Assembly (NCBI RefSeq): GCF_014200595.1
Contig: NZ_JACHCG010000001.1
Span: 3,183,780-3,247,779, forward strand
Direction of reading: 5' to 3'
Length of the DNA: 64,000 bases
DNA from: Pedobacter cryoconitis
GTDB taxonomy: Bacteria > Bacteroidota > Bacteroidia > Sphingobacteriales > Sphingobacteriaceae
The notes beneath the pieces were generated by a model. It ran no database searches, had not been told where the DNA came from, and was given only the letters and a program-made list of their open reading frames with translations. This document shows, one piece after another, positions 24,390 through 63,727 of the stretch. The translations under genes and the position numbers were made by a program. The first letter of the stretch is position 1, and every line of letters begins with the position of its first letter.

Positions 24390-25079
24390 TTAAGAAAGTT
24401 CGAATTTATACCCTACTCCTTTGACAGTTGCCACGTAAGTTTCGCCTAATTTCTCTCTCAATTTACGGATATGCACATCTATAGTCCGGTTGGTAACGAC
24501 CACAGAATCTTCCCAGATATTTTTAAGGATAGACTCTCTTGTATATACCTTGCCAGGTTTAGAAGCCAGCAGATACAGCAATTCAAATTCTTTCTTTGCC
24601 AATACTACTTTCTGTCCGCTCTGATAAACAAGATAAGCTTCTCTGTCGATTACTAAATCTCCAATTTCAACTTTGTTCTCAGAAATCTCATCATTGCTTA
24701 CGTTTCTTCTCAATATCGCATTGATACGGCTTACTAAAGCACGTGGCTTAATTGGTTTAGCGATATAATCATCTGCTCCAACATTAAAACCAGCAATTTC
24801 TGAATACTCTTCACTTCTTGCGGTCAGAAAAACCATGAAAGTATTTTTGAACTCAGGAATAGCACGCATCAGACGGCAGGCTTCAATCCCATCCATCTTA
24901 GGCATCATGATATCCAGAATGATCAGATCAGGGTGTACTTTTTTAGCAACTGCAATCCCATCCTGTCCGTTGCTGGCCAGGTAAACCTGATAACCTTCTT
25001 TTTTAAGGTTATATTCAACTAACTCTAAGATATCAGGTTCATCATCAACTATCAGTATCTTTTGTTTTACGGCGCTCAT
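24390..25079 (-). CDS. PhoB/OmpR-family response regulator, orphan
   Basis: A 229-residue regulator. Receiver domain with DDE pocket, phosphoacceptor Asp in LIILDIMMPKMDG and the conserved Lys in AKPI. OmpR_C winged helix with DVHIRKLREKLG recognition helix. No sensor kinase is adjacent: the neighbours are RluA and the TlpA-like lipoprotein. In Bacteroidota such orphan PhoB-like regulators often act with a distant kinase; the partner is unknown here. Confidence 0.92.
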   Translation of the reverse strand: MSAVKQKILIVDDEPDILELVEYNLKKEGYQVYLASNGQDGIAVAKKVHPDLIILDIMMPKMDGIEACRLMRAIPEFKNTFMVFLTARSEEYSEIAGFNVGADDYIAKPIKPRALVSRINAILRRNVSNDEISENKVEIGDLVIDREAYLVYQSGQKVVLAKKEFELLYLLASKPGKVYTRESILKNIWEDSVVVTNRTIDVHIRKLREKLGETYVATVKGVGYKFELS

Positions 25080-25184
25080 GTCTTTAAATATTTGTTACGA
25101 AATTAAGTAATCATTTGCATAACCAGGTTAAAGGTAAGTTAACAAATTGTTAATGACACCTGATAGTTTAACATTGAATTAGGG

Positions 25185-26291
25185 TTAACGTAAAGTCTTT
25201 TCTAAAAACTTATCCAGTTCTTCAGCTCTCAGATTTTTAGCAATAATTTTACCAGCTGGATCCAGGATGAATGAGCTTGGAATAGCTTCAACCTGGTACA
25301 TTCTTACCGTAGGGCTTTCAAAATCTTTTAGTTCACTGGCATGTGTCCATGTTAATCCGTCTGCAATTACCGCTTGTTTCCATGCTACAGGATCTTTATC
25401 TAAAGATACACCCAGGATAGTGAATTTTCTGTCTTTATATTTATTATAAACCTTCACTACGTTTGGATTCTCCTGCCTGCAAGGCTGGCACCAAGAAGCC
25501 CAGAAATCAAGCAATACATATTTCCCTCTTAAATCTGATAGTTTAACCGTTTTTCCATCAATAGTATTCATCGTAAAATCCGGAGCAAGCTGTCCGATTT
25601 GTACAGATTTCAGTTTAGCCATTCTAACTAAGAAATCAGTTACAGCTTCATTTTTATTGAAGTTACTCTTGATTTTTTCTGAATATGCAATCATTTCTTT
25701 CTCATAATCACTTGGATTTAAAGAGTTGATTGCATAGAATCCAGCCAGAGAAGTCGTATTGTCCATGGCAAATTTCAAAATATAGTTTACCAGGCCTTCA
25801 TTTTCTTTAATCAGTGCAGGTCTCATCTGGTTCGCAATGGCATCTCTGTTATGCGGCTGATTCGCTACATTTTCTTCAAATTGTGCCTGTAGGGCTGCAA
25901 GCTTTGCCACATATTGATTTTTATTCTTATTCAGCTCTTCCAGTTTATCAGCTTCTGCTGCTCCTGACAGTTTATACGCAAGGTTTTTATCTTCAAGATC
26001 TGCCTCTAAATTGATGACATCTCCATTTTTAGCAATCAGCATATATTCGCTGTTATCAATCTTTACTCTGAAAAAATCAACTTCAGGTGTACTTCTGCTA
26101 AACTTAAATTCTCCTTTATTTGATAACACTGTGGAGTCGAGTGGAGTCTCACTTGCTTTATTAATTCCGTATAAATAAACTTTTGCTTGTGGTTTAGCAT
26201 GTTCAAATTTCCCGCTGATCTCAAATTTGCTTTTGTCATTACAAGCGACAAATGCAATACATACGATTAATAGGGTGGCTATTCTGTTCAT
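25185..26291 (-). CDS. TlpA-type thioredoxin lipoprotein with N-terminal DUF4369 domain
   Basis: A 368-residue exported redox protein. Lipoprotein signal (LLIVCIAFVAC, Cys lipobox). Residues about 25-130 fit DUF4369, a beta-rich domain common in Bacteroidota. The C-terminal half (about 235-365) is a TlpA/AhpC-TSA thioredoxin fold with WASWCQPCRQENP, giving the CxxC active site. It probably acts in periplasmic thiol reduction or cytochrome maturation. It lies just after the gatB gene. Confidence 0.9.
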   Translation of the reverse strand: MNRIATLLIVCIAFVACNDKSKFEISGKFEHAKPQAKVYLYGINKASETPLDSTVLSNKGEFKFSRSTPEVDFFRVKIDNSEYMLIAKNGDVINLEADLEDKNLAYKLSGAAEADKLEELNKNKNQYVAKLAALQAQFEENVANQPHNRDAIANQMRPALIKENEGLVNYILKFAMDNTTSLAGFYAINSLNPSDYEKEMIAYSEKIKSNFNKNEAVTDFLVRMAKLKSVQIGQLAPDFTMNTIDGKTVKLSDLRGKYVLLDFWASWCQPCRQENPNVVKVYNKYKDRKFTILGVSLDKDPVAWKQAVIADGLTWTHASELKDFESPTVRMYQVEAIPSSFILDPAGKIIAKNLRAEELDKFLEKTLR

Positions 26292-26316: not shown

Positions 26317-27780
26317 TTATTTTAATTTTTCCAATAACAGTTCATTAATTTTTGCGGGGTCTGCTTTCCCTTTTGCCATTTTCATAACTTCTCCGACAAA
26401 TAAACCTAAAACTCCTTTTTTACCGGTTTTATAAGCCGCAACCTGTGGCTTGAATTTTTCCAGCACCTGATCTACAAAACCAGCCAGCTCGCCATTGTTT
26501 TCTACAATCAGCAGGTTAAGTTTTAAAGCGAGTGCCGCAACATCAACATCCTTAGCCGACTGAATAGCCGGTAATAATTGTTGTAAAGCAATTTGCTGCG
26601 TGATTTTCTTTTCTTCCACCAGGTTAACGACCGCAGCAAGCTGTGTAGGGCTTACTTTAAAAGTAGTAATAGTCAGGCCCTGTTCATTTAGTAAAGCTCT
26701 GATCGGGCCGGTTAACCAGTTAATCAGGTTTTTAGGGTTCTTTACTAAAGTTAAAGCAGCATTCAGATAGTCCAGCAATTCTTTATCCTCTGTGAATATC
26801 AAAGCCTCAGAATTATTCAGGCCGAAATCTGCCATCAGCTTTGCTGTAATTTCACGGGGCAATGCAGGCATTCCTGCTTTCAAAGCATCCAGCCATTCAT
26901 CTGAGATCACGATAGGCGGCAGGTCCGGATCAGGGAAATAACGATAATCGTTCGCCATTTCTTTAGTCCGCATCGGCGCTGTAGTTCCATGATCAGCGTC
27001 AAATGTTAAAGTACTTTGAACAATTGAACCTCCGCTGCTAATCACTTCGATCTGGCGGTTAAATTCAAATTCCATCGCTCTGCGTACATTACGGATAGAG
27101 TTCAGGTTTTTTACCTCGCAACGTGTACCAAATTCTTCTGTTCCATTTTCACGGATCGATATGTTGGCATCACAGCGGAAACTTCCTTCTTCCATATTTC
27201 CATCCCCTACGTCCAGATGCCTGACCAGCTTTCTCATTTCGGTTAGCAATACAGAAGCTTCTTCGGCAGAGCGGATATCAGGTTCAGTTACAATTTCGAT
27301 CAAAGGCACTCCTGCCCTGTTCAGATCTACAAAAGAATAGTGATCATCCTGGTCATGCATACTTTTACCTGCATCTTCTTCCATATGGATACGGTTGATT
27401 CCGATACGTTTTTCTGTACCATCACTTAAAACCAGGTCGATATATCCATTCTGGCAAATCGGTTTGTTATCCTGAGTGATCTGGTAACCTTTAGGCAGAT
27501 CGGCATAGAAGTAATTTTTACGGTCAAAATAGTTGGTTTGATTGATCGTACAGTTAAGGGCCAGCCCCATTCTGATCGCTTTTCCAACTACTTCTTTATT
27601 CATTTTTGGCAATGCACCAGGCAAAGCCAATGAAACCGGAGAGATATGCGCATTCGGTTTTGCACCAAAAGCTGCGCTGTCTGAAGAAAATATTTTCGAT
27701 TTTGTATTTAACTGAACGTGAATCTCTAAGCCTGATACCAATTCAAATGCTGTGGGAGGAATAGCAGTTTTCGTACTCAT
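26317..27780 (-). CDS. gatB: aspartyl/glutamyl-tRNA amidotransferase subunit B
   Basis: A 487-residue subunit of GatCAB, which converts Glu-tRNA(Gln) or Asp-tRNA(Asn) to the amidated forms. The kinase-like catalytic part begins with FELVSGLEIHVQLNTKSKIF and contains RKNYFYADLPKGYQITQ and MEEGSFRCDANIS; a helical domain and the YqeY-like tail (from about 350) complete the subunit. Length is normal. gatA and gatC are not in the window. Confidence 0.96.
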   Translation of the reverse strand: MSTKTAIPPTAFELVSGLEIHVQLNTKSKIFSSDSAAFGAKPNAHISPVSLALPGALPKMNKEVVGKAIRMGLALNCTINQTNYFDRKNYFYADLPKGYQITQDNKPICQNGYIDLVLSDGTEKRIGINRIHMEEDAGKSMHDQDDHYSFVDLNRAGVPLIEIVTEPDIRSAEEASVLLTEMRKLVRHLDVGDGNMEEGSFRCDANISIRENGTEEFGTRCEVKNLNSIRNVRRAMEFEFNRQIEVISSGGSIVQSTLTFDADHGTTAPMRTKEMANDYRYFPDPDLPPIVISDEWLDALKAGMPALPREITAKLMADFGLNNSEALIFTEDKELLDYLNAALTLVKNPKNLINWLTGPIRALLNEQGLTITTFKVSPTQLAAVVNLVEEKKITQQIALQQLLPAIQSAKDVDVAALALKLNLLIVENNGELAGFVDQVLEKFKPQVAAYKTGKKGVLGLFVGEVMKMAKGKADPAKINELLLEKLK

Positions 27781-27923
27781 TTAAGGGCAATAAATTAAAC
27801 TAATGTCGTGAATTACTGTCTCACAAATATAACCAAATAAGTTTATGACCATGGGTTTAAGACGCATTTATAATCATGGCATAAACTTTGACAATTTACA
27901 TACACACACAAATTTGAAACGTT

Positions 27924-28526
27924 ATGAAAAAATTACTTTTAATTGCTGCTATTGGAATCGCTTCCCTTGCAGCTGCACCAGCGGCGAAAGCCCAGGTGAG
28001 TTTAAGTATAAATATTGGGTCACAGCCCCAATGGGGCCCTAGAGGATATAATCACGTTGATTATTATTATTTACCTGATGTAGATAGTTATTACTATGTA
28101 CCGACACGCCAGTTTGTTTATTTAAGTGGAAACAGATGGATCCATGCCCGTTCTCTTCCTTCAAGATACCGGGGTTATGATTTGTATGGCGGCAGAAAGG
28201 TAGTGATTAACAACTATGCTAATCCATGGACAAGACACAATTATTACAGAACGCAATATGTAAGCAATAACTATTATAGCAGACCATCGCGGGTTGTAGT
28301 CAGAAATAATTACCGTAACGATAGAAGAGATTACAATAGAGGAAATGGTAACGGCTGGGGAAGAGGTCATGACAGAGGAAATGGCTGGGGAAGAGGAAAT
28401 GACAGAGGAAATGGCTGGGGAAGAGGAAATGGCGGACATGACAACGGCAACAGAGGTAACCATGGTGGAGACAGAGGTAATCATGGTGGCGACCATGGTG
28501 GACATGGAAGAGGTGGCCGTAACTAA
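27924..28526 (+). CDS. secreted Gly/Arg/Asn-rich repeat protein
   Basis: A 200-residue exported protein with signal peptide (MKKLLLIAAIGIASLAAAPAAKA). The middle (about 30-130) is Tyr-rich. From about 130 the tail repeats R-G-N-G-W-G-R-G-N/H-D/G and then G-G-D/H-H-G units to the end, strongly positively charged. Likely a cell-surface or extracellular protein; the family is not recognised and function unknown. The DNA of the repeat tail yields long frames on the opposite strand, which are shadows. Confidence 0.8.
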   Translation: MKKLLLIAAIGIASLAAAPAAKAQVSLSINIGSQPQWGPRGYNHVDYYYLPDVDSYYYVPTRQFVYLSGNRWIHARSLPSRYRGYDLYGGRKVVINNYANPWTRHNYYRTQYVSNNYYSRPSRVVVRNNYRNDRRDYNRGNGNGWGRGHDRGNGWGRGNDRGNGWGRGNGGHDNGNRGNHGGDRGNHGGDHGGHGRGGRN

Positions 28527-28569
28527 TAGATATTACCAATAAATTACTGATATTATTAATTCTTATTGT

Positions 28570-28601
28570 AAAGTATCACGACCTTTGGGTTGTGATACTT
28601 T
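28570..28601 (+). terminator. hairpin terminator after the Gly-rich protein gene
   Basis: AAAGTATCACGACC pairs with GGTTGTGATACTTT (14 bp, one G-T pair) around a 4-nt loop, followed by TATTTTTAT. Confidence 0.8.
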
Positions 28602-28641
28602 ATTTTTATAAGCTATTTACTATTTTATATTAACCTGATTA

Positions 28642-29061
28642 ATGATGATTGAGAACATAGAAGCAATGCTGACCCGGAAAAACATTAACCCTACTGCCAT
28701 GCGGCTACTGGTACTGGATTTCCTGTTAAAGCAGTCTTCAGCAATCAGTCTGACCGATCTGGAAAAAGGATTAGATCCTTCAGACCGCATAACTTTGTAC
28801 CGTGCACTTAAGAAGTTTGAAGAAAAAGGGCTGGTACATAGTATTGACGATGGTTCTGGCGCGACTAAATATGCACTTTGTGAAAATGATTGCGAAGCCG
28901 GGCATCACCACGATCTGCATGTTCACTTTTTCTGTAATACCTGCCGGGAAACTTCTTGTTTGCCAAAACACCATATCCCGCAAATTGCCTTACCTGATGG
29001 CTTTAAATCTGAAGAAGTTAACCTGATCGTTAAAGGCGTTTGTAATAAATGTGTCCAATAG
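28642..29061 (+). CDS. Fur family transcriptional regulator
   Basis: A 139-residue metal-responsive repressor. Winged-helix part about 1-75 (NPTAMRLLVLDFLLKQS, SDRITLYRALKKFEEKGLV), then the regulatory domain with His-rich segment HHHDLHVHFFCNTCRETSC giving metal ligands, and a C-terminal CNKC pair for the structural zinc. It precedes a metal P-type ATPase by 97 bp and probably controls it; the dyad at 29065 is a candidate operator. Zinc is the likely metal (Zur-type) but Fe/peroxide types cannot be excluded. Confidence 0.9.
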   Translation: MMIENIEAMLTRKNINPTAMRLLVLDFLLKQSSAISLTDLEKGLDPSDRITLYRALKKFEEKGLVHSIDDGSGATKYALCENDCEAGHHHDLHVHFFCNTCRETSCLPKHHIPQIALPDGFKSEEVNLIVKGVCNKCVQ

Positions 29062-29064
29062 TTT

Positions 29065-29077
29065 GCAATACCATTGC
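29065..29077. promoter_or_regulatory. dyad between Fur-type regulator and metal ATPase, candidate operator
   Basis: GCAAT-ACC-ATTGC is a perfect 5-bp dyad with a 3-bp spacer, 15 bp upstream of the -7 box at 29092. Its place between a Fur-family gene and a metal exporter suggests a repressor site; the match to any known box was not tested. Confidence 0.4.
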
Positions 29078-29091
29078 GCTATAGTTTAAAG

Positions 29092-29099
29092 TACCTTTG
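29092..29099 (+). promoter_or_regulatory. Bacteroidota -7 box (TAnnTTTG) of the metal ATPase gene
   Basis: TACCTTTG, 60 bp before the ATG of the P-type ATPase, matches the consensus -7 box. The nearest TTTG lies 26 bp upstream, a longer spacing than usual. Confidence 0.45.
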
Positions 29100-29158
29100 T
29101 TTTAGAGAATCAAAAAAAAGCTTTAGCTTAATCAATCTCTTTGACTTAAGATACTATT

Positions 29159-31192
29159 ATGGCCACTAAAAATATAGATACCTGCTGTGATACAGCTACC
29201 ATTGCAGAGAAAAAACCTGCCGCAGCACACAAGCCACATACGCATGATAGTCATAGTCATGGCGATCATAACCATAGTCATGATGACCACAGCCACGATG
29301 ACCACGACCATGACCATGATCACGGCGATGGTGAAAGTTCAGGCTGGAAAGGCCAGATTCCTTTATTAACTTCATTAGCGATACTTGCAGTTATGTTAAC
29401 GCTGGAATATGGTTTTAAATTCATACCGGCAAAACCGGTTTCCCTGCTGATTTTTGGGGCCGCTTTCCTGCTGGCAGGATATAACGTATTGAAGTTAGCT
29501 TTCAGAAAAGCAATGAGACTGGATTTCTTCAATGAATTTTTCCTGATGAGCGTGGCCACAATTGGTGCATTCTCTATCGGATCTTACAGTGAAGGCGTCG
29601 CAGTAATGGTATTTTATTCCATCGGAGAATGGTTCCAGGATGTAGCCGTCTCTAATGCAAAACGCAGTATTAAAGCATTATTGGATATTCGTCCGGATAC
29701 AGTAGATGTAATCAGGGATGGAAAAATCACCACTATTAAACCTGCTGATGTTGAAATTGGTGAACTTATTCAGGTTAAAGCCGGAGAAAAAGTAGCCTTG
29801 GATGGCGAACTGGTTTCTGATAAAGGAACCTTCAATACCTCTGCGATGACTGGAGAGAGTAAACCAGATTCCAAAGCAAAAGGTGACAGCGTACTAGCTG
29901 GAATGATTAACCTGAACACGGTAATTGAGGTTAAAGTATTGTCTTTATTCAAAGATAGCAAGCTGAACAGGATTCTTGAAATGGTGCAGGATGCAACAGC
30001 AAGAAAGTCTAAAACCCAGTTGTTCATTTCCAGGTTTGCAAAAGTTTACACCCCTATTGTGTTCGCTTTAGCGGTACTGGTTGTAGCCCTGCCCTATCTG
30101 TTTGTAACCAACTATGTTTTTGCAGAGTGGTTATATCGCGGACTTGTTTTCTTAGTCATTAGCTGTCCTTGTGCTTTAGTTGTTTCCATTCCACTGGGGT
30201 ATTTTGGCGGTATAGGCCTGGCTTCTAAAAATGGTATTCTGTTCAAAGGATCAAACTTCCTGGATGTGATGACTACGATTAATACCGTAGTGATGGATAA
30301 AACCGGAACATTGACTAAAGGCGTTTTCAAAGTACAGCGTGTAGTTGCTGTGAATGGTGATGAAAAAGAATTATTGCGTTTAACTGCTGCTATTGAAAGC
30401 AAGTCTACTCACCCTATTGCTACTGCGGTGACTTTACATGCAGGTGATGTTTTACACAGCACAAAGATTGGTGAAGTAGAAGAAGTACCAGGAAAAGGGC
30501 TTAAAGGCCTGATTGACGGCAAACAGGTACTGGCTGGAAATATCAGGTTGCTGGATCAGTTTAACATTACTTATGCTGAGGAGGTAGCTAAAGAAGAAGA
30601 CACTGTAGTTGTAGTTGCGATAGACGGCGTTTATGCTGGATTTATTACGATTGCCGATGAGCTGAAAGAAGACGCAGTACAAGCCGTAAAGGAAATGCAT
30701 GAAATGAAAATCCAGACCGTAATGCTAAGTGGCGACAAACAGGCTGTGGTTGATAAAATAGGTAGATTACTAGGGATAGATCGTGCTTTTGGGGATCTTT
30801 TACCAGAAAACAAAGTTGAAAGAGTAGAAGAGCTGAAGCAGCAAGGCAAACATATCGCTTTTGTTGGAGACGGAATTAATGATGCTCCAGTTGTGGCATT
30901 GGCTGATGCAGGGATTGCTATGGGCGGATTGGGAAGCGATGCGACTATTGAAACTGCGGATATTGTGATCCAGAACGATATGCCTTCAAAAATTGTCACA
31001 GCGATTAAAATCGGAAGACTGACTAAAAACATAGTATGGCAGAATATTGCACTGGCGATGGGCGTGAAAGTAATTGTACTGATTTTGGGAGCCGGTGGCG
31101 TTGCAACTTTATGGGAAGCTGTAATTGCAGATGTAGGTGTTGCCCTGCTGGCAATTTTAAATGCGGTCAGGATTCAAAAAATGAAGCTTTAA
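29159..31192 (+). CDS. heavy-metal P-type ATPase (P1B, Zn/Cd/Co-type) with His-rich N-terminus
   Basis: A 677-residue ATP-driven metal exporter. It starts with a Cys-Cys pair and a His/Asp-rich stretch (about residues 24-60) instead of a classic CxxC HMA domain. Six to eight helices follow, with the SCPCALVVS motif in TM6 (CPC at 336-338), the actuator motif TGES, the phosphorylation site DKTGTLTKG (Asp380), STHPIA and GDGINDAP. CPC with a His-rich N-terminus is typical of Zn/Cd (P1B-2) or related pumps. The Fur-family regulator upstream supports a metal-stress role. Confidence 0.93.
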   Translation: MATKNIDTCCDTATIAEKKPAAAHKPHTHDSHSHGDHNHSHDDHSHDDHDHDHDHGDGESSGWKGQIPLLTSLAILAVMLTLEYGFKFIPAKPVSLLIFGAAFLLAGYNVLKLAFRKAMRLDFFNEFFLMSVATIGAFSIGSYSEGVAVMVFYSIGEWFQDVAVSNAKRSIKALLDIRPDTVDVIRDGKITTIKPADVEIGELIQVKAGEKVALDGELVSDKGTFNTSAMTGESKPDSKAKGDSVLAGMINLNTVIEVKVLSLFKDSKLNRILEMVQDATARKSKTQLFISRFAKVYTPIVFALAVLVVALPYLFVTNYVFAEWLYRGLVFLVISCPCALVVSIPLGYFGGIGLASKNGILFKGSNFLDVMTTINTVVMDKTGTLTKGVFKVQRVVAVNGDEKELLRLTAAIESKSTHPIATAVTLHAGDVLHSTKIGEVEEVPGKGLKGLIDGKQVLAGNIRLLDQFNITYAEEVAKEEDTVVVVAIDGVYAGFITIADELKEDAVQAVKEMHEMKIQTVMLSGDKQAVVDKIGRLLGIDRAFGDLLPENKVERVEELKQQGKHIAFVGDGINDAPVVALADAGIAMGGLGSDATIETADIVIQNDMPSKIVTAIKIGRLTKNIVWQNIALAMGVKVIVLILGAGGVATLWEAVIADVGVALLAILNAVRIQKMKL

Positions 31193-55278: not shown

Positions 55279-55413
55279 GATGTTTTAGCGGGATTGTTGA
55301 ATTATTTTATACCTACTTAAACCCTAACCATGCTTCCTAATAGACTAATAATACTTTTTCTCATAATTGCTAAATAATTTCGAATCGGTTTTCGCTGACA
55401 GAAGTAATAACAA

Positions 55414-55509
55414 ATGTTAAGATTTCCAGCTCTAAAATGGAACGCGCTGCGTTCCATTTTAGACAATAACATAAGGGATGCTAAAGCAAGAAAAGCTTAC
55501 GGACAGTAA
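55414..55509 (+). other. short coding remnant with fold-back sequence (unrecognised)
   Basis: A 31-codon open frame starting MLRFPALKWNALRS and ending RDAKARKAYGQ. Its tail closely resembles the end of the plus-strand remnant at 59679 (RDASSRKTYSQ), and KWNALRS resembles the conserved KWNAxRS peptide of DUF1016 proteins. A 14-bp perfect palindrome (55432-55445/55449-55462, loop GCT) lies inside. I take it for a leftover of a gene, not a functional protein. Apart from this and the two hairpins, 55202-55574 shows no gene. Confidence 0.4.
55432..55462. repeat. 14-bp perfect inverted repeat
   Basis: CTAAAATGGAACGC-GCT-GCGTTCCATTTTAG. A related but imperfect GGAACGCACTGCGTTTC sequence occurs within the DUF1016 pseudogene at about 59296. 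Confidence 0.7.
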
Positions 55510-55510
55510 A

Positions 55511-55543
55511 TAACAAAGTCCGGCTTACTGCCAGGCTTTGTTA
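55511..55543 (-). terminator. possible terminator after the DUF4926 gene
   Basis: TAACAAAG/CTTTGTTA 8-bp stem downstream of the DUF4926 stop on the minus strand. No long T run. Confidence 0.35.
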
Positions 55544-55574
55544 AAACAGTTTTATTTTGAATATTATCTTATCA

Positions 55575-55763
55575 CTAAACCTTAACAATATTAGATGATT
55601 TAACCGTTAAAACATCTAATGTTTCAAAAGAGTCGTTAACAAACTCAATCTCATAATCCGGCGGGAAATTAGGATAAATAATAAGTACAGTTCCTTTACT
55701 TCCCGCTGGAACTTTATCATTTAGGTCAACTAAAGACCTTATAACATCATATATCTCTATCAT
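55575..55763 (-). CDS. DUF4926 domain protein, candidate immunity protein
   Basis: A 62-residue single-domain protein. The pattern VIRSLVDLNDKVPAGSKGTV followed by LIIYP, YEIEFV and LDVLTVKSSNIVKV matches DUF4926, a small beta-barrel fold. DUF4926 genes are often found just downstream of DUF6883-type toxin genes; here it starts 7 bp after a decayed RHS tip with a DUF6883-like domain. The likely job is neutralising that toxin, even though the toxin gene itself is broken. Confidence 0.8.
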   Translation of the reverse strand: MIEIYDVIRSLVDLNDKVPAGSKGTVLIIYPNFPPDYEIEFVNDSFETLDVLTVKSSNIVKV

Positions 55764-55770
55764 AATATTT

Positions 55771-56521
55771 TTATTTCGCAGGAAAAGCAGTAATTAACCG
55801 AACCACGTTATCATTATTTTTATCCAGGCCATCAGCACATTAATAACTCGCCCATTTGCTCCTGTTACAGGTATAACCTGATTAAATTTTGTACCGTATT
55901 GTGTTACACTAGTCTCCACTGCCTTGCCCCCGTCTCTAAAACTAACTGCTTCACTAACCCAGCTGAATTTTTATTTGTAAAGCCTAGTACATTTGGCTTT
56001 AGCCACACCAATAGCATGATCGACATTCAATAGATATCCAGCCAACTTCTCTTCAACGGACAATTGCGACACAGCCTTTAATTCTGCAGATGGCCCAAAA
56101 GATGGGTCAATTACAAAATTAATAGTTGACAAGCCTTGCGCATTACAATCAACATCATAATTAAACCCACCATGATCTCTCCTCCGTCTAAATAGGACAT
56201 TGCGCTTTGCCAAAAAGACGTTAGTCGATTGATTTTTGGTGCCTTTGTAAAATCAAGGTTCCTTGTCTGTTTTCCATTTCCTTTCTTAGGATCTTCTTGT
56301 TGCGGCACAAGCTGCCTAAACATAGTTTGAGCTTCTTCAGCAGATTCAGATGAAATATTACCATTAGCATCCGTGGTCATCATACCATCTGGATCAATAT
56401 TTCTAATTGGATTATTGATTGCGTAGTCATAAGGTGACCACCTTCTACTCATCTCCGCCAAAGGATCCACCCCACCTCCCTATCACCGGGTCATAGAACC
56501 TTGCGCCGTAATCATACTCCT
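55771..56521 (-). pseudogene. RHS C-terminal tip C with DUF6883-like toxin domain, frameshifted
   Basis: Reads [16 protein letters not shown], then after a frame change [21 protein letters not shown] and IRNIDPDGM, the RHS-associated core end. The variable part follows in shifted frames: a [20 protein letters not shown] region, EKLAGYLLNVDHAIGVAKAK, GFTNKNSAGLVKQLVLE, VTQYGTKFNQVIPVTGANG and NNDNVVRLITAFPAK before the TAA at 55771. The YLLNxDHxxGxxKAK and RLITAFP pieces are DUF6883-like. At least four frame changes are needed, so the gene is dead. It begins at the same core point as tips A and B. Confidence 0.75.
56476..56521 (-). repeat. RHS core homology segment of tip C
   Basis: 46 bp encoding the [15 protein letters not shown] core, differing at one base from 58071-58116 and at several from 60977-61022. 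Homology to the other tips stops at the 5' side of this segment. Confidence 0.85.
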
Positions 56522-56531
56522 TTACATCAAA

Positions 56532-57350
56532 CTACTGTTTAATTACAGAATCTATCAAGTTTACTCCGTTAATTATTTTATTATTAATATCATATAAATT
56601 ACTCTCAATAAGTATTCGATATTTACCTTTTTCAGGAAAAGCATTGGAAATTTTCACCGTACTATTTACAACTTTAAGAAATTTATATTGACTTTGATTT
56701 ATTTTAACAGTAATAGATAACCTGGCCTTTTCTGGATTTGCCACAGTAATATATAAATCATTAACATCTGTAAACACTCTACTTGCACTTAGCTGGTAAC
56801 CTAATGGAGTTACAGCTTTATTTTTAGAATTAATTGAATAAAAGTCAGGGCTTACAACTAGACCATTCATCTCTTTTAATTTAAGATTCCCTTCAATATC
56901 ATAATCAATAGAAAAAGATATCTTTTTATTAATATCATATAATAGATATTTTTTTTTATGGCCATTATCGTAATAATTGTACCATCCTCCGTATGGTTTA
57001 CCATCCATATAGTATCCAGAGTAGGCTAATTTCCCATTATTATTATATAAATATCCTTTACCACTAGGTTGTCCATCAACAAAAAATGTTTTACTTTTTA
57101 TTTTACCATTTTCGTAATACATTATTTCCCAACCTTGCTTTATTCCATTTAAGACATGTCCAATTACATATACTTTACCAGCTTTATATATTGTTACTTT
57201 TCCATTAGCTTTTCCTTCTGAATTGTGGTTGATAAATGTGGCATCTTGCTTAAAAAGCTCTACACATTTCATTTGAATTTTCTCCCGATTAAAGTAAAAA
57301 ATTGCAGCAATACCAATAAAGAATAACAAATTTTTATTCAATGATTTCAT
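56532..57350 (-). CDS. membrane-anchored MORN-repeat protein, candidate immunity protein of tip B
   Basis: A 272-residue protein. N-terminal membrane anchor (LLFFIGIAAIFYF) and then several MORN/YwqK-type repeats at about 50-150 (YYENGKIKSKTFFVDGQPSG, YLYNNNGKLAYSGYYMDGKP, GGWYNYYDNGHKKKY). The C-terminal part is beta-rich. It begins 8 bp after the tip B stop, the standard place for an immunity gene of a polymorphic toxin. MORN-repeat partners of toxin genes are known from Bacteroidota; the pairing here is by position. Confidence 0.75.
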   Translation of the reverse strand: MKSLNKNLLFFIGIAAIFYFNREKIQMKCVELFKQDATFINHNSEGKANGKVTIYKAGKVYVIGHVLNGIKQGWEIMYYENGKIKSKTFFVDGQPSGKGYLYNNNGKLAYSGYYMDGKPYGGWYNYYDNGHKKKYLLYDINKKISFSIDYDIEGNLKLKEMNGLVVSPDFYSINSKNKAVTPLGYQLSASRVFTDVNDLYITVANPEKARLSITVKINQSQYKFLKVVNSTVKISNAFPEKGKYRILIESNLYDINNKIINGVNLIDSVIKQ

Positions 57351-57358
57351 CTATTAAT

Positions 57359-58116
57359 TTATTTTTTCATTAATTTTGTTTTACCCAGCCAAGTAAATCC
57401 GCTAAAGTTTTCATAACCAAACCGCTTTATTTGTCTTCTTTTTGCTTCTGATTCCGTTATTGTATCTTTTCTAACCGGATCAATCACCAAATGCTCATAA
57501 ATATCCCCCTCTATTCCATTAGGCTTGTCGTTAGGTGAAGTTTTATCCTCCTTAATAAGATTTAAGTTTTTAGCCGCATCATATACATCAAATGGATTAT
57601 AGATATTTGGATCAGCATTTGTCCTTAATTGTCCCATGTAACTGAACAATGGGGACATATCTCCCAAATTGCCTACTTTACCAGCATTTGGTCTTAAATG
57701 AGCATCTTGATCCTCACCTATTGAGTTATCATTGTTAAAAAAGTTCCAACCTTCACCAATTTTTGCATCCTTCGATTGCCAATTACTTAATGACCAATTA
57801 GAAGAATTATCTGATTGACTTTCCTTAGCTTGAGAATTGAAATGTCCAACTGTTGTTTCATTTTGGCCAGTATTATAACCCCATTCCTTACCCGATTTAT
57901 ATATTTCAGAAGGTTTATTTCCCGATATCCAATCAGCTGCTTTTCTTAACCAAGCACCTAACTTACTATATCTCCCATCAGGATCAACAAAACCAGTCGG
58001 ATTATTGAAGGCGTAATTATACGGCGAATATCGCCTCATCTTCTCAGAAAGCGGATCTACAACGTTCCATCTCCCTATCACCGGGTCATAGAACCTAGCG
58101 CCGTAATCATACTCCT
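57359..58116 (-). CDS. orphan RHS C-terminal tip B, 5'-truncated, unknown toxin domain
   Basis: Reads [41 protein letters not shown] and FVDPDG, the RHS-associated core end, then about 200 residues of variable sequence. The variable domain has no motif I know; its end ([35 protein letters not shown]) is basic and could be the toxic part. No ATG or signal precedes it: the upstream frame has a stop just before the core (TGA, then LCREEYDYG), so it is a displaced tip, not a full RHS gene. The GTG at 58081 is an internal Val. It is followed by a MORN-repeat gene. Confidence 0.75.
58071..58116 (-). repeat. RHS core homology segment of tip B
   Basis: 45 of 46 bases identical to 56476-56521 and 39 of 46 to 60977-61022. 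Marks the 5' edge of the cassette. Confidence 0.85.
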
Positions 58117-58141
58117 CTCTACAGAGATAATGTCCTCAATA

Positions 58142-58447
58142 CTATAAACTAATCATTTTCACCCCATAATAATCAATTATACCCCCAATAACTAAAGCTA
58201 TAAAACCATTTAGATACCAAAATCTCTTAACCCATTTTTTTAAGAATAACGTGTTAAATAAACTTATTAAAAATGTTCCACAAACTAATCCAATAATAGC
58301 ATAAGTCCACAATATCAATGGAACTTCAGCACTAGAACTATCGCCAGCACTTAAAATGGGTATCATTACCCAAAAGATTACATATAAACCTATCCAGAAC
58401 AAATACAAGCTGATAGGTCCAAAATTATTATTTAACGATCTTTCCAT
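58142..58447 (-). CDS. small membrane protein, possible orphan immunity gene
   Basis: A 101-residue protein with about three hydrophobic segments (YLFWIGLYVIFWVMIPIL, LILWTYAIIGLVCGTFLISL, YLNGFIALVIGGIIDYYGV). Not recognised. It lies just upstream of tip B in the cassette array but without its own tip, so it may be the immunity half of a cassette whose toxin half is lost. That role is inference from position only. Confidence 0.6.
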   Translation of the reverse strand: MERSLNNNFGPISLYLFWIGLYVIFWVMIPILSAGDSSSAEVPLILWTYAIIGLVCGTFLISLFNTLFLKKWVKRFWYLNGFIALVIGGIIDYYGVKMISL

Positions 58448-58507
58448 TTCTAAATAAATTTTAACGGTCTCCTTCGGTGTCTAATGACAATCCCAATAAC
58501 TATGTTA

Positions 58508-58560
58508 ATAATGGTTCTATGTTATTTAGCTCAGGTCAGATTTTTCACCAGCAGAAGTAG
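58508..58560. repeat. sequence shared with 61814-61868
   Basis: About 50 bp, including an identical TATGTTATTTAGCT and TTTTTCACC, directly downstream of the DUF1016 pseudogene. The other copy is downstream of the recombinase operon. Confidence 0.6.
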
Positions 58561-58573
58561 TGATTTACTAGTG

Positions 58574-59587
58574 TTATTTTAGTCGTTTCTCCATTTCTAC
58601 AGCCTCTCTTTCTTTTGCAATTTCTTGCTGTAACTCTTGCTCGGTTGGAAGATAGGTTTTGTATTTCGATGCAAAGATTTGTTTGCTATCATTCAATAGA
58701 CTGTATTTGGCTACTGCATTGTTTTTTTCGGAACAAAGTATTAATCCAATAGTTGGATTATCGCTTTCCTGTCTCATTTTTTCTTCAAAGATCCGAACGT
58801 ACATATCCATTTGCCCAACATCCTGATGGCTGAGCTTGCCTTTATTTAAATCAATCAGTAGAAAGCATTTTAGGATGTAATTGTAAAAAACCAGATCAAT
58901 AAAAAAGTGCTCCCCCTCTAAACTTATCCGATATTTCCTGCTTACAAATGAAAAGCCTTTTCCCAGTTCCAATAAAAAATCCTATAGCTTATCAATAATA
59001 GCTTGTTCAAGTTCCTGTTCATAAAAATTGATATTAGCTTTCAGTTCCAAAAAATCAAGTACATAAGGATCTTTGATGATATCCCTTGCTTCTCTTTTTT
59101 ACCTTCCGCTTCTGCTTTTACTAGCGTCTGACCTCCTTTTTGGGTCAATACCATTCTTTCAAAATACAGACTATTTAGCTGCCTTTAAAGTGTTCTAGTA
59201 CTCCAATTACCTTCAATGGCTTCTTGTATGTAAAACAATCTGGCATCCTCTCTTTCCGTTTTTAACAACAAACGGTAATGTGTCCAACTCAATTCGGAAC
59301 GCACTGCGTTTCATTTTGGAAAAACAACGTAGAATTGCCTTATATAGCGCAAGTTTCGACTGCTAAAACTTTTCCCATATTCTTTGGCTAACCGAACTGA
59401 TAATTCTTCCAATAAAGCGGCTCCATAACCTGCTTTTTCTTTTCCATCTTGTTCATTTTCAACAATCAATTCCCAATATGCCAATAGACCTCAACCATAG
59501 TAGCATTAACTACCCGGTAAGCGGTATCTTTACCTGTTTTATATTGCTGTAAAGTCTCTCTATATGGGTTGCCAGCGTATCGTTCAT
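58574..59587 (-). pseudogene. DUF1016/YhcG-like PDDEXK nuclease gene, multiply broken
   Basis: The intact 3' end (58574-58972) encodes the C-terminal PDDEXK nuclease domain: ELGKGFSFVSRKYRI, EHFFIDLVFYNYILKCFLLIDL and DVGQMDMYVRIFEEK, the typical Asp...Asp-x-Lys-like layout of DUF1016. Upstream pieces in shifting frames give DPYVLDFLELKANINFYE, AIIDKL-stop-DFLLELGKG (TAG at 58984), ELSWTHYRLLLKTERED, a TGA in place of Trp in PK-W-NAVRS, and an N-terminus from about ATG 59587 (MNDTLATHIERLYSNIK). Intact relatives are about 350 residues. The gene is decayed and probably a remnant of an earlier element or defence island. Confidence 0.8.
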
Positions 59588-59678
59588 AATTACAATATTA
59601 ATGTTTTCTTTTTATTCTATTGGATGATTATTTCAACAGATAATGCTCATTCAGTTCTCCTTTGATAAAAGACTGTAA

Positions 59679-59786
59679 AGGATACAACAGATAAAGAGAC
59701 TTGCTGAAAAAGGACAGAACCATACACTAGTTATTATTGATACTTTTCTTAGGGATGCAAGTTCCAGAAAAACTTATAGTCAGTAA
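59679..59786 (+). other. plus-strand coding remnant ending RDASSRKTYSQ
   Basis: A 35-codon stretch after an in-frame TAA reads RIQQIKRLAEKGQNHTLVII then DTFLRDASSRKTYSQ-stop. The tail closely resembles the plus-strand remnant at 55414-55509, so both appear to be C-terminal leftovers of the same gene family, each just beyond the 3' end of an RHS cassette. Family unknown. Confidence 0.4.
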
Positions 59787-59822
59787 ACAATTAAGCCCCC
59801 ATAGCTATATAAACATTAACTT

Positions 59823-60227
59823 TTAATCCTTAATTACCACCTGCCAATTTGATTTAATTAAATCTTCCTCAGAATATTCTAGCCTTTTATATAGGCGTTT
59901 TAGAATTAAATCATCTATACTATTATGGGCTTTTAACGAATCTGCACTAAATACAAAGAAATTGACTTTTTTATTTTTACTGTTTAATAAAAATCTCTTC
60001 CATCCGCTAGCGCCATTTTCCATCGCATCAAGAGTATCATTTACCAATAATACATTACTGTAATAATATTCTGTATGATTAATACTTGGATACTCAGGTA
60101 CCGTATCTATATTCCACAAAATATTAATATTATGATCAGTATGATTAACAACTTCTATTATTGCAGGAGCTGGATCATAGATACAAGAGGTCAAAAACAA
60201 AATAAGGACGATAATATATTTTTTCAT
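59823..60227 (-). CDS. lipoprotein, candidate immunity protein of tip A
   Basis: A 134-residue lipoprotein: MKKYIIVLILFLTSCIYDP puts Cys in the lipobox. The mature part is short, Asn/Tyr-rich and beta-like. ATG at 60227 is preferred over 60260 because it starts the signal peptide. It begins 8 bp after the tip A stop, the immunity position; an exported immunity protein would suit a toxin acting in the envelope. Confidence 0.7.
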   Translation of the reverse strand: MKKYIIVLILFLTSCIYDPAPAIIEVVNHTDHNINILWNIDTVPEYPSINHTEYYYSNVLLVNDTLDAMENGASGWKRFLLNSKNKKVNFFVFSADSLKAHNSIDDLILKRLYKRLEYSEEDLIKSNWQVVIKD

Positions 60228-60234
60228 AGCATTA

Positions 60235-61022
60235 TCAATAAAAAAGTGGTGCATATACATTTGGCGGTACTATATAAGGATTAACAGGATTCTGATCATA
60301 AGACGGCTTGAGAGGAAACCTTCTTCTATCCCAATTTCTTGGAGCCCCAAAATATTGATAAGATTCATCATTTGCATCCTTTTCAGTGTAAAAAGTATGG
60401 TGGTCGTATGTCGAACTAATGTTAGACCAAGTAGCACTTGCTAAACTAGGTATAGCATTAAATAAATAAAATGAAGTTTTACCTGTTCTATTTGACTGCA
60501 AAACATGACCAAATTCATGCCTAAGCAAATTTACATCTTTAGCACTTTTTGAACTGACAAAAATGCCAATACCTGGCAACGTTAATCCAGCTCCCTTGGC
60601 CATTCCTTCCATTTTATAAACTGGAACTCCTTCGAAATTATTATTTTCATTTTTAGCTATAATTTGTGTTTGTCCGCTAACGGATGACGTAGCAGATTCT
60701 CCTGTATTAGCACTAGTTGCAGTACCATCTGCATTCAAATTAACAGTACCTGCGTTTGCTCCTGAGCTTACAATGCTAGCTGTAGTACCTATGTTGGTAT
60801 AGCCTGCTTGTTCTGAACTACCATCAACCCATTTTACATTTTTAAGATCTTTGGACTGATACCAATCAGTTGCTTCCATTCCATCCGGATCAATAAATCT
60901 GATCGGATTGTTATTCCCATAAACATAAGGACTGAAACGTCTACTCTTCTCAGAAAGTGGATCTACCGTATTGAAACGCCCAATCACCGGATCATAGAAC
61001 CTCGCCCCGTAATCGTACTCCC
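60235..61022 (-). CDS. orphan RHS C-terminal tip A, 5'-truncated, zincin-type toxin domain
   Basis: Reads [39 protein letters not shown] and [12 protein letters not shown], the RHS-associated core end, then a low-complexity Ser/Thr/Ala/Asn linker and a toxin-like end. Counting from the GTG at 60987, HEFGH is at residues 157-161 (zinc ligands His157, His161, Glu158 catalytic) and [19 protein letters not shown] could supply the third ligand (Glu202 or near). This HExxH...E...YFG pattern is the metallopeptidase layout seen in RHS and other polymorphic toxins. There is no proper start or upstream core, so it is an orphan tip. Confidence 0.75.
60977..61022 (-). repeat. RHS core homology segment of tip A
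   Basis: 46 bp matching 39 positions of the tip B segment. Homology ends at 61022, where the GC-rich segment begins. Confidence 0.8.
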
Positions 61023-61399
61023 TTAAGCAACTTTTTTTGGGTTTGCCGGATTTGCTGGCCGCACTTTTTCAGTGCTATAAAGAACTTTCCTTTCCCGTAA
61101 AGTTAGTGCTTTATTTGAGTTTACTGGTTGGACTTGTTTGGCTTTTTTTGTTGGAGATTCGACTTTTAAGGTGCGGAACTATGAAAGGCAGTGCTGATTC
61201 GTTAGTACATCTGTTACAGCAAAGATAGCCCCGAAAGTAAAGCAGTAAAGGGCTTTCGCGGCATAAACGCACATAGCCTTTGCCCTCAAAAAGGCCATTT
61301 ATTCCACGATCCCTTGACAGCTTCACTTTCTTAGGCTCTGGGTGGCTTAACAAATGAACTACCTGAACCTCTGATGAAAGGATGGCAATTTGCCCCCTC

Positions 61400-61456
61400 C
61401 AGGGATAAAAAGAGCTTTGGCAGAGCGGAGGATAAGAGCGGCTCTTTTTATCCCTG
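61400..61456. repeat. 16-bp inverted repeat
   Basis: CAGGGATAAAAAGAGC (61400-61415) and GCTCTTTTTATCCCTG (61441-61456), perfect arms with a 25-nt centre. Confidence 0.8.
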
Positions 61457-61813
61457 AGAGGTTGGGCGGGAGCACTGTCCCTGTTTCAAGGGGTACAGGT
61501 TGTTCTCCCGACCAGTCCTGCACTGCCACCATCAATGAACAATACCATGCTGCCGCAGGCTTTGCCGCTGACCGACTGGAAGGAGACGGCATATATAAAC
61601 AAAGGCAAAGGTTGCTCTTTGCAGGCGTTTGCCTGCACTGTTTGGCAGTGAGAGCCGATAGCCCGGATAACACCTTTTTTTGATGAAAGTACTTTGGCTA
61701 TGGGCTGGAACGGGAGCGCTGGCCGAGGGGGGACGAGCGGCTATTTAATATAATACCCATTATAATACCAGCACTGGGATTGAACCAAAGTCATGGATTA
61801 CTCTGCTGCGTTT

Positions 61814-61868
61814 ATAATGTGTATTATGTTATTTAGCTTCGGGCCGGTTTTTCACCGGCAGCAAAGCG
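61814..61868. repeat. sequence shared with 58508-58560
   Basis: Second copy of the roughly 50-bp similarity, about 80 bp downstream of the recombinase 2 stop. It also contains a GCCGG-n7-CCGGC hairpin that is degraded in the other copy. Confidence 0.6.
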
Positions 61869-61950
61869 AGCGGAAGGACAGCAAAATACAGAGGCAAGCG
61901 AGCCCTTTGCGAGCTGGCTGGATTTTGAGGGACTGGAGGCGTGCGGGGGT

Positions 61951-62862
61951 TTATTTGAGTGGATGGTGTTTATTTAAAGCTTCTTTCAGGTCTTCCAGGT
62001 TACTGGTTTGATAGCGCTCGGTACTGCTCACATATTTATGCCCTGCCATATATTGAACTGTCCGTAAGTCTTTTTCTTTCAGCCATTCGGTAATCACGCT
62101 TTGACGAAGCTGTACTGCATTTTTATATTTAGGGTTCAGCCTGCGTAGAGCCTGGTTCAGGTGGTATAAGCTGTTTTTGATGTTCTCACAACCATTCATA
62201 CTGATGAACAACTGACTGGTTTGTTCGGCTGCTTTCATCACTTTAGGTTTTCTACCGGATCGTTCTGCTATTCTGTTAGCAAAGATTTTAGAACGGGTCA
62301 CATGGATATATTCATACAGTTCCATGATCTGGAAGGCTTCCAGTTTGAGCGTCCTGCTGTTGGTCTGCTCATTTGCCGGTATATAGACCTTTCCTTCTTT
62401 TAACCTGATATGTTCTGCCTTTAGCTGATGCAGTTCCTGACTAGTCAAACCCTGGTAGACCAGTAAAGACAAGATCACTTTATTGCGCTGGCTCCGGTCA
62501 TCTTTGACCGCATAACTTTCATACAAAGCTTCCAGTTCTTCTTTTTCCAGCAGACCACCGGGAACAGTTTTTAAGCCCCCTTTCAACCGGATACCTGCTA
62601 CCGGGTTATAGCTAACCTTGTTTTGTTCTTGTAACCAGCTGAAGTAATACCGGATCGCCAGCAGCATCCTGTTCACCAGGCCAATGCCTTTATTTTCCTG
62701 TTTCTGCTGGTCGGCATAATCAAGGATTTCCTTAAAGCTTACCTGTTCCAAACTGAGACTTTCACCTGAAAGCCAGGCCAGAAAGTAACTCGTATATTTC
62801 CGGTGCTGGTAAACTGTAACCGGTTTTAAGCCCCGCTGTTGTAAGTATTCTTCAAAGTTCAT
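61951..62862 (-). CDS. tyrosine recombinase/integrase-like protein, degenerate catalytic set
   Basis: A 303-residue phage-integrase-family protein with an N-terminal core-binding domain (about 1-95) and a catalytic domain. The expected box I Arg is replaced: YQGLTSQEL has Thr140 where active relatives have Arg. Box II reads QLRQSV (Gln251, Arg253, Gln254) instead of HxLRH. His275 (MAGHKYVSS) and Tyr284 (STERYQ) are present. It may be a structural or regulatory partner of the intact recombinase at 62852, whose stop it overlaps by 11 bp. Confidence 0.85.
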   Translation of the reverse strand: MNFEEYLQQRGLKPVTVYQHRKYTSYFLAWLSGESLSLEQVSFKEILDYADQQKQENKGIGLVNRMLLAIRYYFSWLQEQNKVSYNPVAGIRLKGGLKTVPGGLLEKEELEALYESYAVKDDRSQRNKVILSLLVYQGLTSQELHQLKAEHIRLKEGKVYIPANEQTNSRTLKLEAFQIMELYEYIHVTRSKIFANRIAERSGRKPKVMKAAEQTSQLFISMNGCENIKNSLYHLNQALRRLNPKYKNAVQLRQSVITEWLKEKDLRTVQYMAGHKYVSSTERYQTSNLEDLKEALNKHHPLK

Positions 62863-63727
62863 CTACGATATGGGTATAGATTTGTGTACTTTCCAAACTG
62901 CTATGGCCTAAGAACAACTGGATCTGTTCCAGCTTCATTCCAGATTGCAATAGATGGGTAGCAATACTATGACGAAGGGTATGCGGACCGACAGCCTTTT
63001 TGATTCCCGATGCCGATCTTAGTTTCCAGATCCGTTCAAAAGCTGTCTTTAGCCGTTTGCCATGAATATTTAACAGCAGTGCCGATTCCCTTCCTCCGCA
63101 CCCCAGGTACGGACGGCCATAGTTCAGGTAATGTTCCAGCTCTGTTTTATTACTGCCTGTCAAGGGAACATATCTGGCTTTATAACCTTTGCCTTTACGA
63201 ACCAGCACCAGTTCCTTTTCCAGCAAGATGTCTTCTGTATTTAAGCTCAGTCCTTCACTCTTTCTCAGCCCACATCCGTAATACAAGGCCAGTAGTGCCC
63301 GGTCACGTAAGCCCAGCGGACTTTCTGCTGTCGTGGCATACAGTTTGGCGATTTCTTTTCTGGTCAGGACACTTTTAACATTAGCCGTTTCACCTTTGAT
63401 CCTGGTTTTCACCGCGAAGCTTTCCTGACCACTTTCGCACAGGTAACGGGCAAACTTACGGATCACCTGCAAGTGTTTGCGCCTGTAGTTCAAACTCAGT
63501 GTACCACCTCCGGTTTTACCTTGTTTATCACTCAGCTCATGCAGGTAGTTTTGCAGATGGCTTTCCTGTATTTGTGACAGGCTGTTGCAGCCATGTGATT
63601 CCAGAAAAGCCAGGAACTCACCCAGCAGTTTAGGCATATCCCTTTGGCTGCTTGGATCAAAGTTCAGGATCCTCAGCCATTCACTGAAACCGGCTTGCTG
63701 GCGGATGTAAAGTAGATTTTCCATCAT
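62852..63727 (-). CDS. tyrosine recombinase/integrase (XerC/D-like), complete catalytic set
   Basis: A 291-residue site-specific recombinase. Core-binding domain about 10-105, catalytic domain after that. Catalytic residues: Arg155 (YGCGLRKSEGL), Lys183 (GYKARYVPL), His249-x-x-Arg252 (GPHTLRHSIATH), His275 (LGHSSLESTQ) and the nucleophile Tyr284 (IYTH). It probably resolves or inserts a mobile DNA segment. The next gene (61951) overlaps its end by 11 bp, so the pair is translationally coupled. No gene of either recombination target is visible. Confidence 0.92.
   Translation of the reverse strand: MMENLLYIRQQAGFSEWLRILNFDPSSQRDMPKLLGEFLAFLESHGCNSLSQIQESHLQNYLHELSDKQGKTGGGTLSLNYRRKHLQVIRKFARYLCESGQESFAVKTRIKGETANVKSVLTRKEIAKLYATTAESPLGLRDRALLALYYGCGLRKSEGLSLNTEDILLEKELVLVRKGKGYKARYVPLTGSNKTELEHYLNYGRPYLGCGGRESALLLNIHGKRLKTAFERIWKLRSASGIKKAVGPHTLRHSIATHLLQSGMKLEQIQLFLGHSSLESTQIYTHIVDEL

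Follow-up and report, generated by a model that had tools for sequence, protein, structure and literature searches.

An array of displaced Rhs toxin tips in Pedobacter cryoconitis, probably built by site-specific integrative elements that target rhs genes

Introduction

How polymorphic toxins gain a new tip together with its matching antidote is usually ascribed to homologous recombination. The closest described systems are the orphan rhs-CT/rhsI and cdiA-CT/cdiI modules (PMC3967940, PMC6336857; CT, C-terminal domain) and the immunity arrays of the type VI secretion system (T6SS) of Vibrio cholerae (PMC5361080), whose exchange is put down to homologous or illegitimate recombination in the available parts of these papers and, for the V. 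cholerae arrays, is expressly said there to involve no specific integration sites. The accessible text of Zhang 2012 (PMC3482391) presents the same end product and mentions XerC/D beside polyimmunity loci; in what is available of all four publications (PMC3482391, PMC3967940, PMC5361080, PMC6336857), orphan tips are caused by recombination, mostly homologous or illegitimate. The present work deals with an array of three displaced Rhs tips, adjoining genes for two tyrosine recombinases (Rec1 and Rec2) and the end of an ATPase gene, in a stretch of 64,000 nucleotides of Pedobacter cryoconitis (hereafter the window; assembly GCF_014200595.1, contig NZ_JACHCG010000001.1, positions 3,183,780 to 3,247,779). 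Very probably, the array goes back to site-specific integrative elements of one family, which target the 3′ part of rhs genes and carry a new toxin tip as their left end. Contigs of this genome are designated by C (the window lies on C1), related genomes by G and named loci by L.

As far as the available portions of those papers describe them, the orphan rhs, cdi and T6SS arrays resemble the arrays examined here in that headless tips and/or immunity genes are lined up behind a full-length gene, a layout read as sequential displacement; they differ in that here 44 of the 47 tips in a census begin at one site with no core to its left, many of them beside a recombinase element. The rAID-1 arrays of Bacteroidales (PMC12247911), also from Bacteroidota, likewise have a tyrosine recombinase beside immunity-gene arrays. 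According to the part of that paper at hand, however, they are defined by a recombinase with a co-oriented array of orphan immunity genes, whereas here two recombinases occur with an ATPase and tips bearing CTs, fused in frame, accompany the immunity-like genes, which places the locus outside that class. GInts (PMC5385486) and SE, RIT and Tn554 (table in PMC10214605), in the portions available, share several tyrosine recombinases, site-specific integration and variable cargo with the proposed elements, and GinC lacks the first arginine (PMC5385486), as Rec2 does. In the elements proposed here, by contrast, two recombinases are accompanied by an MCM-like ATPase together with an XRE repressor, a toxin gene serves as the target, and coding sequence of that gene forms the left end; in particular, two recombinases and an ATPase do not correspond to the ginABCD set of a GInt, described in the available text as three integrases and a small helix-loop-helix protein (PMC5385486). 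Rec1 from C6 is not an integron integrase, as it scores 125.2 bits with TIGR02249 against a cut-off of 265 bits.

Prophages and islands can integrate inside a gene and carry a replacement 3′ end of their target. Integration within a gene and a carried replacement end are thus common to both, but the end that they replace is equivalent, whereas here a different C-terminal domain would arrive with a new immunity-like gene. Among the papers listed by a literature search, judged by title and start of abstract and with most subscription papers and bioRxiv outside its scope, none describes a tip-swapping integrative element, which does not prove that no such description has been published.

A common start site of the tips

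The start of the tips was surveyed across the genome of P. cryoconitis, genomes of relatives and named contigs; sites were located by motif, and not all tips are independent, some being tandem copies or belonging to shared loci. In 44 of the 47 tips with a full left flank, the sequence left of GATTAYGG has a similarity to the rhs core of at most 0.62 (95% point of shuffled flanks, 0.62), while the first 28 bases right of it match a core at 0.82–1.00. Since the left flanks are no closer to the core than shuffles and the right side is core-like, the common start exceeds chance. The three exceptions are a tip on C8 (0.76) and those of L122 and L125, two contigs that begin inside a true core.

The three tips of the window, all on the minus strand and without a preceding Rhs core, have a common start base. 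With tip 2 as reference over positions 58071–58116 (46 bases), tip 3 is identical at 45/46 bases, then 73/100 and then 121/200, and tip 1 at 39/46, then 60/100 and then 88/200. The divergence behind a common base had been noticed in the initial annotation, whose two counts proved exact on recount, as had the lack of an upstream core, which is confirmed. Position 64000 is the end of contig C1; the tips therefore have no rhs core upstream, the missing head probably falling in the assembly gap. The open reading frame (ORF) caller places the tip starts at a GTG inside the conserved core end, which is not taken as a real start. An Rhs core end followed by a variable CT and an immunity-like gene, without head, is the arrangement of a polymorphic Rhs orphan array (TIGR03696, ORF layout, CT divergence), so the earlier view of a store of displaced headless tips stands, with toxicity and immunity as presumed functions. 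The partner gene ascribed to each tip was also found, but tip 3 is frame-broken and a fourth small gene (58142–58447) lies directly before tip 2.

The repeated unit and its boundaries

In related genomes, the unit consists of an in-frame tip with its CT, an immunity-like gene, a repressor, the ATPase, Rec1, Rec2 and a conserved right end, behind which comes a displaced tip at GATTAYGG. On C6, an immunity-like gene and the genes for a 539-aa ATPase, Rec1 and Rec2 lie behind an rhs frame of 1,143 codons; the right end comes next, and then the whole is repeated (6,400 identical bases, period 6,389). Within the rhs gene, the first copy opens in frame at GATTACGG; the second opens at the same bases immediately after the right end, and a different tip is found at the third junction. 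G042, a single contig, has a tandem at the same site with 6,183 identical bases and a period of 6,173. The bases common to all junctions are GATTACGG, and the match extends to 11 bases in C6 and 10 in G042. Each unit is thus bounded at constant positions, its two ends sharing a short identical overlap (GATTACGGGGC in C6, ACGATTACGG in G042). As the tandem copies begin at the tip and end at the right end, the tip lies inside the repeated unit.

A tandem repeat of 8,885 bp occurs at L136, and the contigs L115, L118, L123 and L127 run from site to site within 3 bases; element size is about 5.7–8.9 kb in the examples. Contigs one element long and bounded by the target site in draft assemblies could serve to find such elements. 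Among 37 contigs or stretches, none showed circularity by a terminal overlap of at least 15 bases. No convincing inverted repeat was seen by eye in the arms around the site, and no common short att motif was resolved beyond it.

Three units of this genome carry unrelated cargo on near-identical backbones, which are 96.3–97.4% identical over about 1.3 kb from just behind the immunity-like gene; from there back to the first 145 nt, which form the core end, no similarity among them was found. A similar break is seen in four paralogous rhs cores, which share 93–97% identity over the last 100 nt before the site, 60–70% over the next 100 and 37–52% from about 200 nt on, i.e., the random level (46–52% in five shuffled controls).

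Backbone genes

Rec1 keeps the catalytic R, K, H, R, H and Y in 31 of 31 aligned homologues and thus has the complete catalytic set of a recombinase from a tyrosine-recombinase integrative element. Among Rec2 homologues, the arginine I is present in 2 of 33, and the HxxR histidine is Gln in 31 of 33. A helix-turn-helix (HTH) gene lies on the opposite strand between the immunity-like gene and the ATPase in 16 of 17 units (by eye; it was not seen in L136), and the copy of C11 was confirmed by PF01381 (1.3e-13). Several units also have a SymE-like gene (PF08845 on C11, 1.4e-8). The ATPase is predicted to adopt the MCM AAA+ fold, a model-based assignment for residues 105–501, outside of which the fold search scarcely covered the model; its profile had no match among PDB sequences.

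Rhs and element sequences elsewhere in the genome

The Rhs-core family has 24 matches in the 6.35 Mb genome, 23 of them above cut-off, in open frames of up to 2,568 codons; 21 were examined at base level, the remaining three lying outside the fetched stretches. Full-length rhs genes with a core matching that of the tips, for which a genome search had been proposed, are present. A 121-base piece of tip 2 matches 20 places in the genome. The ends of contigs C1, C4, C8, C10 and C11 fall within this Rhs/element material, so the assembly breaks in these repeats; nine contig ends compared with each other had no exact overlap of at least 20 bases.

Several remnants have an extra 0.5–0.6 kb at the Rec2 end (C8, 28173–28724; C4, 222311–222903; G127, flipped, 24978–25511), which in G127 is a 177-aa ORF that is ORF6N-like by eye. 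On C8 (flipped, 27311–30916), a gene of 1,100–1,200 aa precedes the rhs core, and a gene of similar size lies at the end of C2; its product may be a partner of the Rhs protein.

Distribution among relatives

Rec2 occurs in 11 of 145 genomes of the genus, this one included, with 20 matches. An Rhs tip was present in the fetched downstream flank of 15 of these, and two of the five others (G127, and G042 at 3.01 Mb) have one farther down. Elements whose Rec2 is 57–69% identical still end at the same base. The ATPase profile led to 33 named loci (Pedobacter, Mucilaginibacter, Sphingobacterium, Arcticibacter, Fulvivirga, Sediminibacterium, Flavobacteriales, Saprospiraceae and others), including six loci of the genus set (L114–L117, L143, L146); of these, L114 (Pedobacter aquatilis CECT 7114) looks intact. 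At least one tip is held by 30 of the 33, as detected with a tip profile seeded with 56 tips, some from the scanned loci, and all 45 tips are on the strand of the element, none being on the opposite one. For comparison, the genome of P. cryoconitis has 24 core matches in 6.35 Mb. Where at least 1.7 kb was available upstream, a tip lies within 4 kb upstream of the ATPase (25 of 27 loci); where at least 1.4 kb was available downstream, one lies within 2.5 kb behind Rec2 (13 of 18). At the more distant L138, L139 and L141, the displaced frame is open for 53–95 codons before the tip-profile match; the site seems to lie farther upstream there.

Relatives of the CTs of tips 1 and 2 (CT1 and CT2) were found in 10 and 5, respectively, of the same 145 genomes, this one included. 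Apart from copies in this genome, the matches are partial (four CT1 matches are in open frames of 1,172–1,761 codons) and therefore provide no direct before/after pair.

Distant relatives on plasmids and a circular record

Distant relatives of the ATPase are found on plasmids (27 records, with 27.6–35.7% identity among the 20 listed; a second search used one plasmid relative). Seven of these regions were chosen and opened, six being annotated and the seventh (Caballeronia) having no gene table. Five of the six annotated regions plainly carry RHS genes, CdiA-type genes or headless Rhs tips. The Aureispira and Aureibacter plasmids have RHS genes with repeated units. FHA/CdiA-type genes are present in Paraburkholderia, with a displaced tip behind XerC (by eye), and in Enterobacter, where a second copy is suggested by a repeated immunity accession; in Janthinobacterium, a large gene with FG-GAP repeats lies near an Imm26 gene. 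A record of Lonsdalea populi (L241) is an 11,289-bp circle without head gene that has two element-like units, two headless Rhs-like tips (by eye), a primase and XerC, and is possibly an excised form. In all six annotated regions, the ATPase relative is labelled as a toprim, CHC2 or primase protein; L133 and L136 have a DnaG-type primase encoded separately.

Organization and history of the locus in the window

Read on the minus strand from the right, the end of the ATPase gene is followed by Rec1, Rec2 and the right end. Tip 1 and its lipoprotein-like gene come next, separated by a decayed nuclease-like stretch from a small membrane-protein-like gene, which stands before tip 2 and its MORN-like gene; tip 3 and a DUF4926 gene close the array (Table 1). 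Right ends resembling E precede tips in related genomes. The CT of tip 1 has an HExxH motif (read by eye) and a weak eCIS_core match, below cut-off, and its putative immunity gene has no match in Pfam or NCBIfam. Between this gene and the membrane-protein-like gene, positions 58574–59600 hold a decayed remnant of a DUF1016-like nuclease (name by eye).

Table 1. Features of the displaced tip array in the window.
Feature	Position	Strand	Evidence
C-terminal piece of AAA+ (MCM-like) ATPase, cut by contig end	63755..64000	-	tblastn to 539-aa ATPase, residues 459-538, 70%
Rec1, tyrosine recombinase, full catalytic set	62852..63727	-	PF00589, E 1.5e-36
Rec2, second tyrosine recombinase, without first catalytic arginine	61951..62862	-	PF00589, E 2.1e-11
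Element right end E, ~0.94 kb, no convincing gene, abuts tip 1	61015..61950	-	15 matches in this genome, whole or partial
Displaced tip 1 (Rhs core end and CT), starts at GATTACGG, open for 259 codons	60235..61014	-	TIGR03696, 2.8e-13 (enclosing frame)
Putative immunity gene of tip 1, lipoprotein-like, 145 aa	59823..60260	-	ORF
Second right-end type: small membrane-protein-like gene, directly before tip 2	58109..58447 (ORF 58142-58447)	-	ORF
Displaced tip 2, open for 249 codons	57359..58108	-	TIGR03696, 2.5e-11 (enclosing frame)
Putative immunity gene of tip 2, MORN-like	56532..57350	-	weak PF07661, below cut-off
Displaced tip 3, frame-broken remnant	55971..56513	-	reading frame ends 22 codons from the site (56513)
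DUF4926 protein, putative immunity gene of tip 3	55575..55763	-	PF16277, 4.3e-11

The array adjoins an aminotransferase gene, and the matching stretch was fetched in eight relatives. Six of them (G014, G013, G095, G015, G016 and G139) have no rhs tip beside the aminotransferase in the 20–60 kb read. The orthologous locus of G042 has a full-length rhs gene without element, between an MFS-type gene and the aminotransferase. In G127, the array has another content, including a CT2 remnant and a MORN gene fragment (94% identical) beside a truncated Rec2, which suggests that tip 2 once travelled on such an element. When positions 55299–58573 are compared with G013 (L227/L228), the aminotransferase gene of G013 directly adjoins the DUF1016-like stretch; the intervening 3.3 kb, which hold tips 2 and 3 in the window, are absent there, with no clean site at the junction between the two blocks. 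The MFS-type gene of P. cryoconitis is 3.7 kb from the end of C2, which stops just behind a frame of 1,099 codons. The final 0.2 kb of this frame and its flank match (78%) the end of the large gene upstream of the rhs core on C8, so that the array probably has its head gene in the gap between C2 and C1.

The remnants of right ends in four other arrays shrink with distance from the head gene. Outward from the head, they measure full, full, 353, 219, 173 and 87 bp on C6; at 3.01 Mb in G042, a Rec2 fragment of 287 plus 933, then 214, 158 and 103; at 3.26 Mb in G042, full, full and 150; and in G127, 721 plus 934, then 233. These four arrays may be read as having the newest element first and the oldest and most eroded one last.

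Proposed lifecycle and its alternatives

The proposed element would comprise, from one att site to the other, an Rhs core end with a toxin CT, which has no start codon and lies in the frame of the target, an immunity gene, control genes (usually an XRE-type repressor on the opposite strand and often a small SymE-like gene), the ATPase, Rec1, Rec2 and the right end. Taken together, its course could be viewed as follows: the att site of a circular form would recombine with GATTAYGG inside a resident rhs gene, so that the tip of the element would become the new in-frame C-terminus and the old tip would be left with its immunity gene behind the right end. Repeated insertions would stack the old tips while older elements erode, and excision of the newest element should restore the previous tip in frame. 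The architecture, the common boundaries, the tandem units, the unrelated cargo on near-identical backbones and the conservation are direct observations, from which mobility, recombinase action, a circular form, reversibility, toxicity and immunity are deduced.

Part of this could also be achieved in an integron-like manner, in which Rec1 and Rec2 would move single tip-immunity cassettes in trans, the full element being one of several cassette types and tips 2 and 3 being non-autonomous. This view, which is partly compatible with self-mobile elements, appears rather unlikely as the main explanation, but two observations speak for it. A second type of right end, consisting of a membrane-protein-like gene with a similar 3′ flank, recurs before tips on C1 and C6 (about 310523–310870), twice in G042 and in G127, and could be the sign of another element or of a non-autonomous cassette; moreover, other tips follow unrelated sequences but share the same start base. 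Relatives of the membrane-protein-like gene are found before a tip in G127 (65%) and at the aminotransferase locus of G042 (61%), there without a tip behind it. On the other hand, many remnants of type E resemble eroded full elements rather than separate cassettes, and a common short att motif beyond the site was not resolved.

Much less probable is the classical scheme, in which incoming DNA recombines through the core, homologously or illegitimately, and brings another CT, orphan tips being left behind and the recombinase genes being bystanders. It is the published account, in the parts available, for the orphans of Salmonella rhs, V. cholerae T6SS and Acinetobacter cdi (PMC3967940, PMC5361080, PMC6336857), and the extra core retained by one C8 tip fits it. 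The initial annotation had similarly supposed that cassettes enter a main gene by recombination within the shared core, but the junctions do not show this: left of one fixed site of 5–11 bases, 44 of 47 tips lack core DNA, and for many this place is taken by the right end of a tyrosine-recombinase element that itself begins with the next tip. On the same count, exchange by homology of the core was rejected as the main route. The tandem units bounded by the site, and the tips found on a single strand at 30 of 33 ATPase loci, also argue against this scheme. From these sequence comparisons, the mechanism is better read as site-specific integration. A tip-less transposon (ATPase, Rec1, Rec2 and right end) inserting behind immunity genes or splitting rhs genes would account for conserved backbones with non-conserved cargo, but it deserves almost no credence and was rejected, as the repeated unit includes the tip and both the tandem units and the four unit-length contigs begin at the tip site.

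Several observations nonetheless weigh against integration by such elements, or limit how far it can be extended. Neither excision, nor a circle, nor a strain-level before/after pair was seen in this genome, and the collection holds one genome per species; tandem units could also come from unequal homologous recombination. The exceptional C8 tip retains about 20 more core bases, and C8 also breaks the gradient of remnants, with 163 bp near the head and larger Rec2 and E pieces farther out. Tips 2 and 3 of the window have no typical right end E upstream, which makes their route less certain. Tips are lacking within 12 kb of the G098 match in the genus (48%), anywhere at L130, L134 and L142, upstream at L130 and L133 and downstream at L122, L141, L142, L144 and L145, and the tip profile was seeded in part from loci that it then scanned. 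Viral contigs yielded no confirmed relative of the ATPase, and phages two weak matches to its profile. Finally, Pfam matched 5 of 20 scanned tips (DUF6973 twice and DUF5675, with Ntox24 and Hydantoinase_A below cut-off), which leaves their toxicity unproven.

Biological significance

A wider proposition, somewhat less likely to hold than not, is that a widespread superfamily of self-replicating site-specific elements, with a primase and/or MCM-like helicase, Xer-type recombinases and XRE/SymE control, replaces the ends of polymorphic toxins, namely Rhs in Bacteroidota and Enterobacterales and CdiA-type proteins in Pseudomonadota. The arrays would then behave as last-in-first-out stacks, in which integration pushes a tip and excision pops it, and these elements would be a main source of tip diversity. 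If integration at rhs genes is confirmed, a one-site element carrying both a tip and its immunity gene would account for the orphan arrays, the tandem repeats and the way in which contigs break at rhs loci. Tip exchange would become open to PCR and recombinase-deletion tests, and the evolution of these weapons would be tied to the spread of mobile elements.

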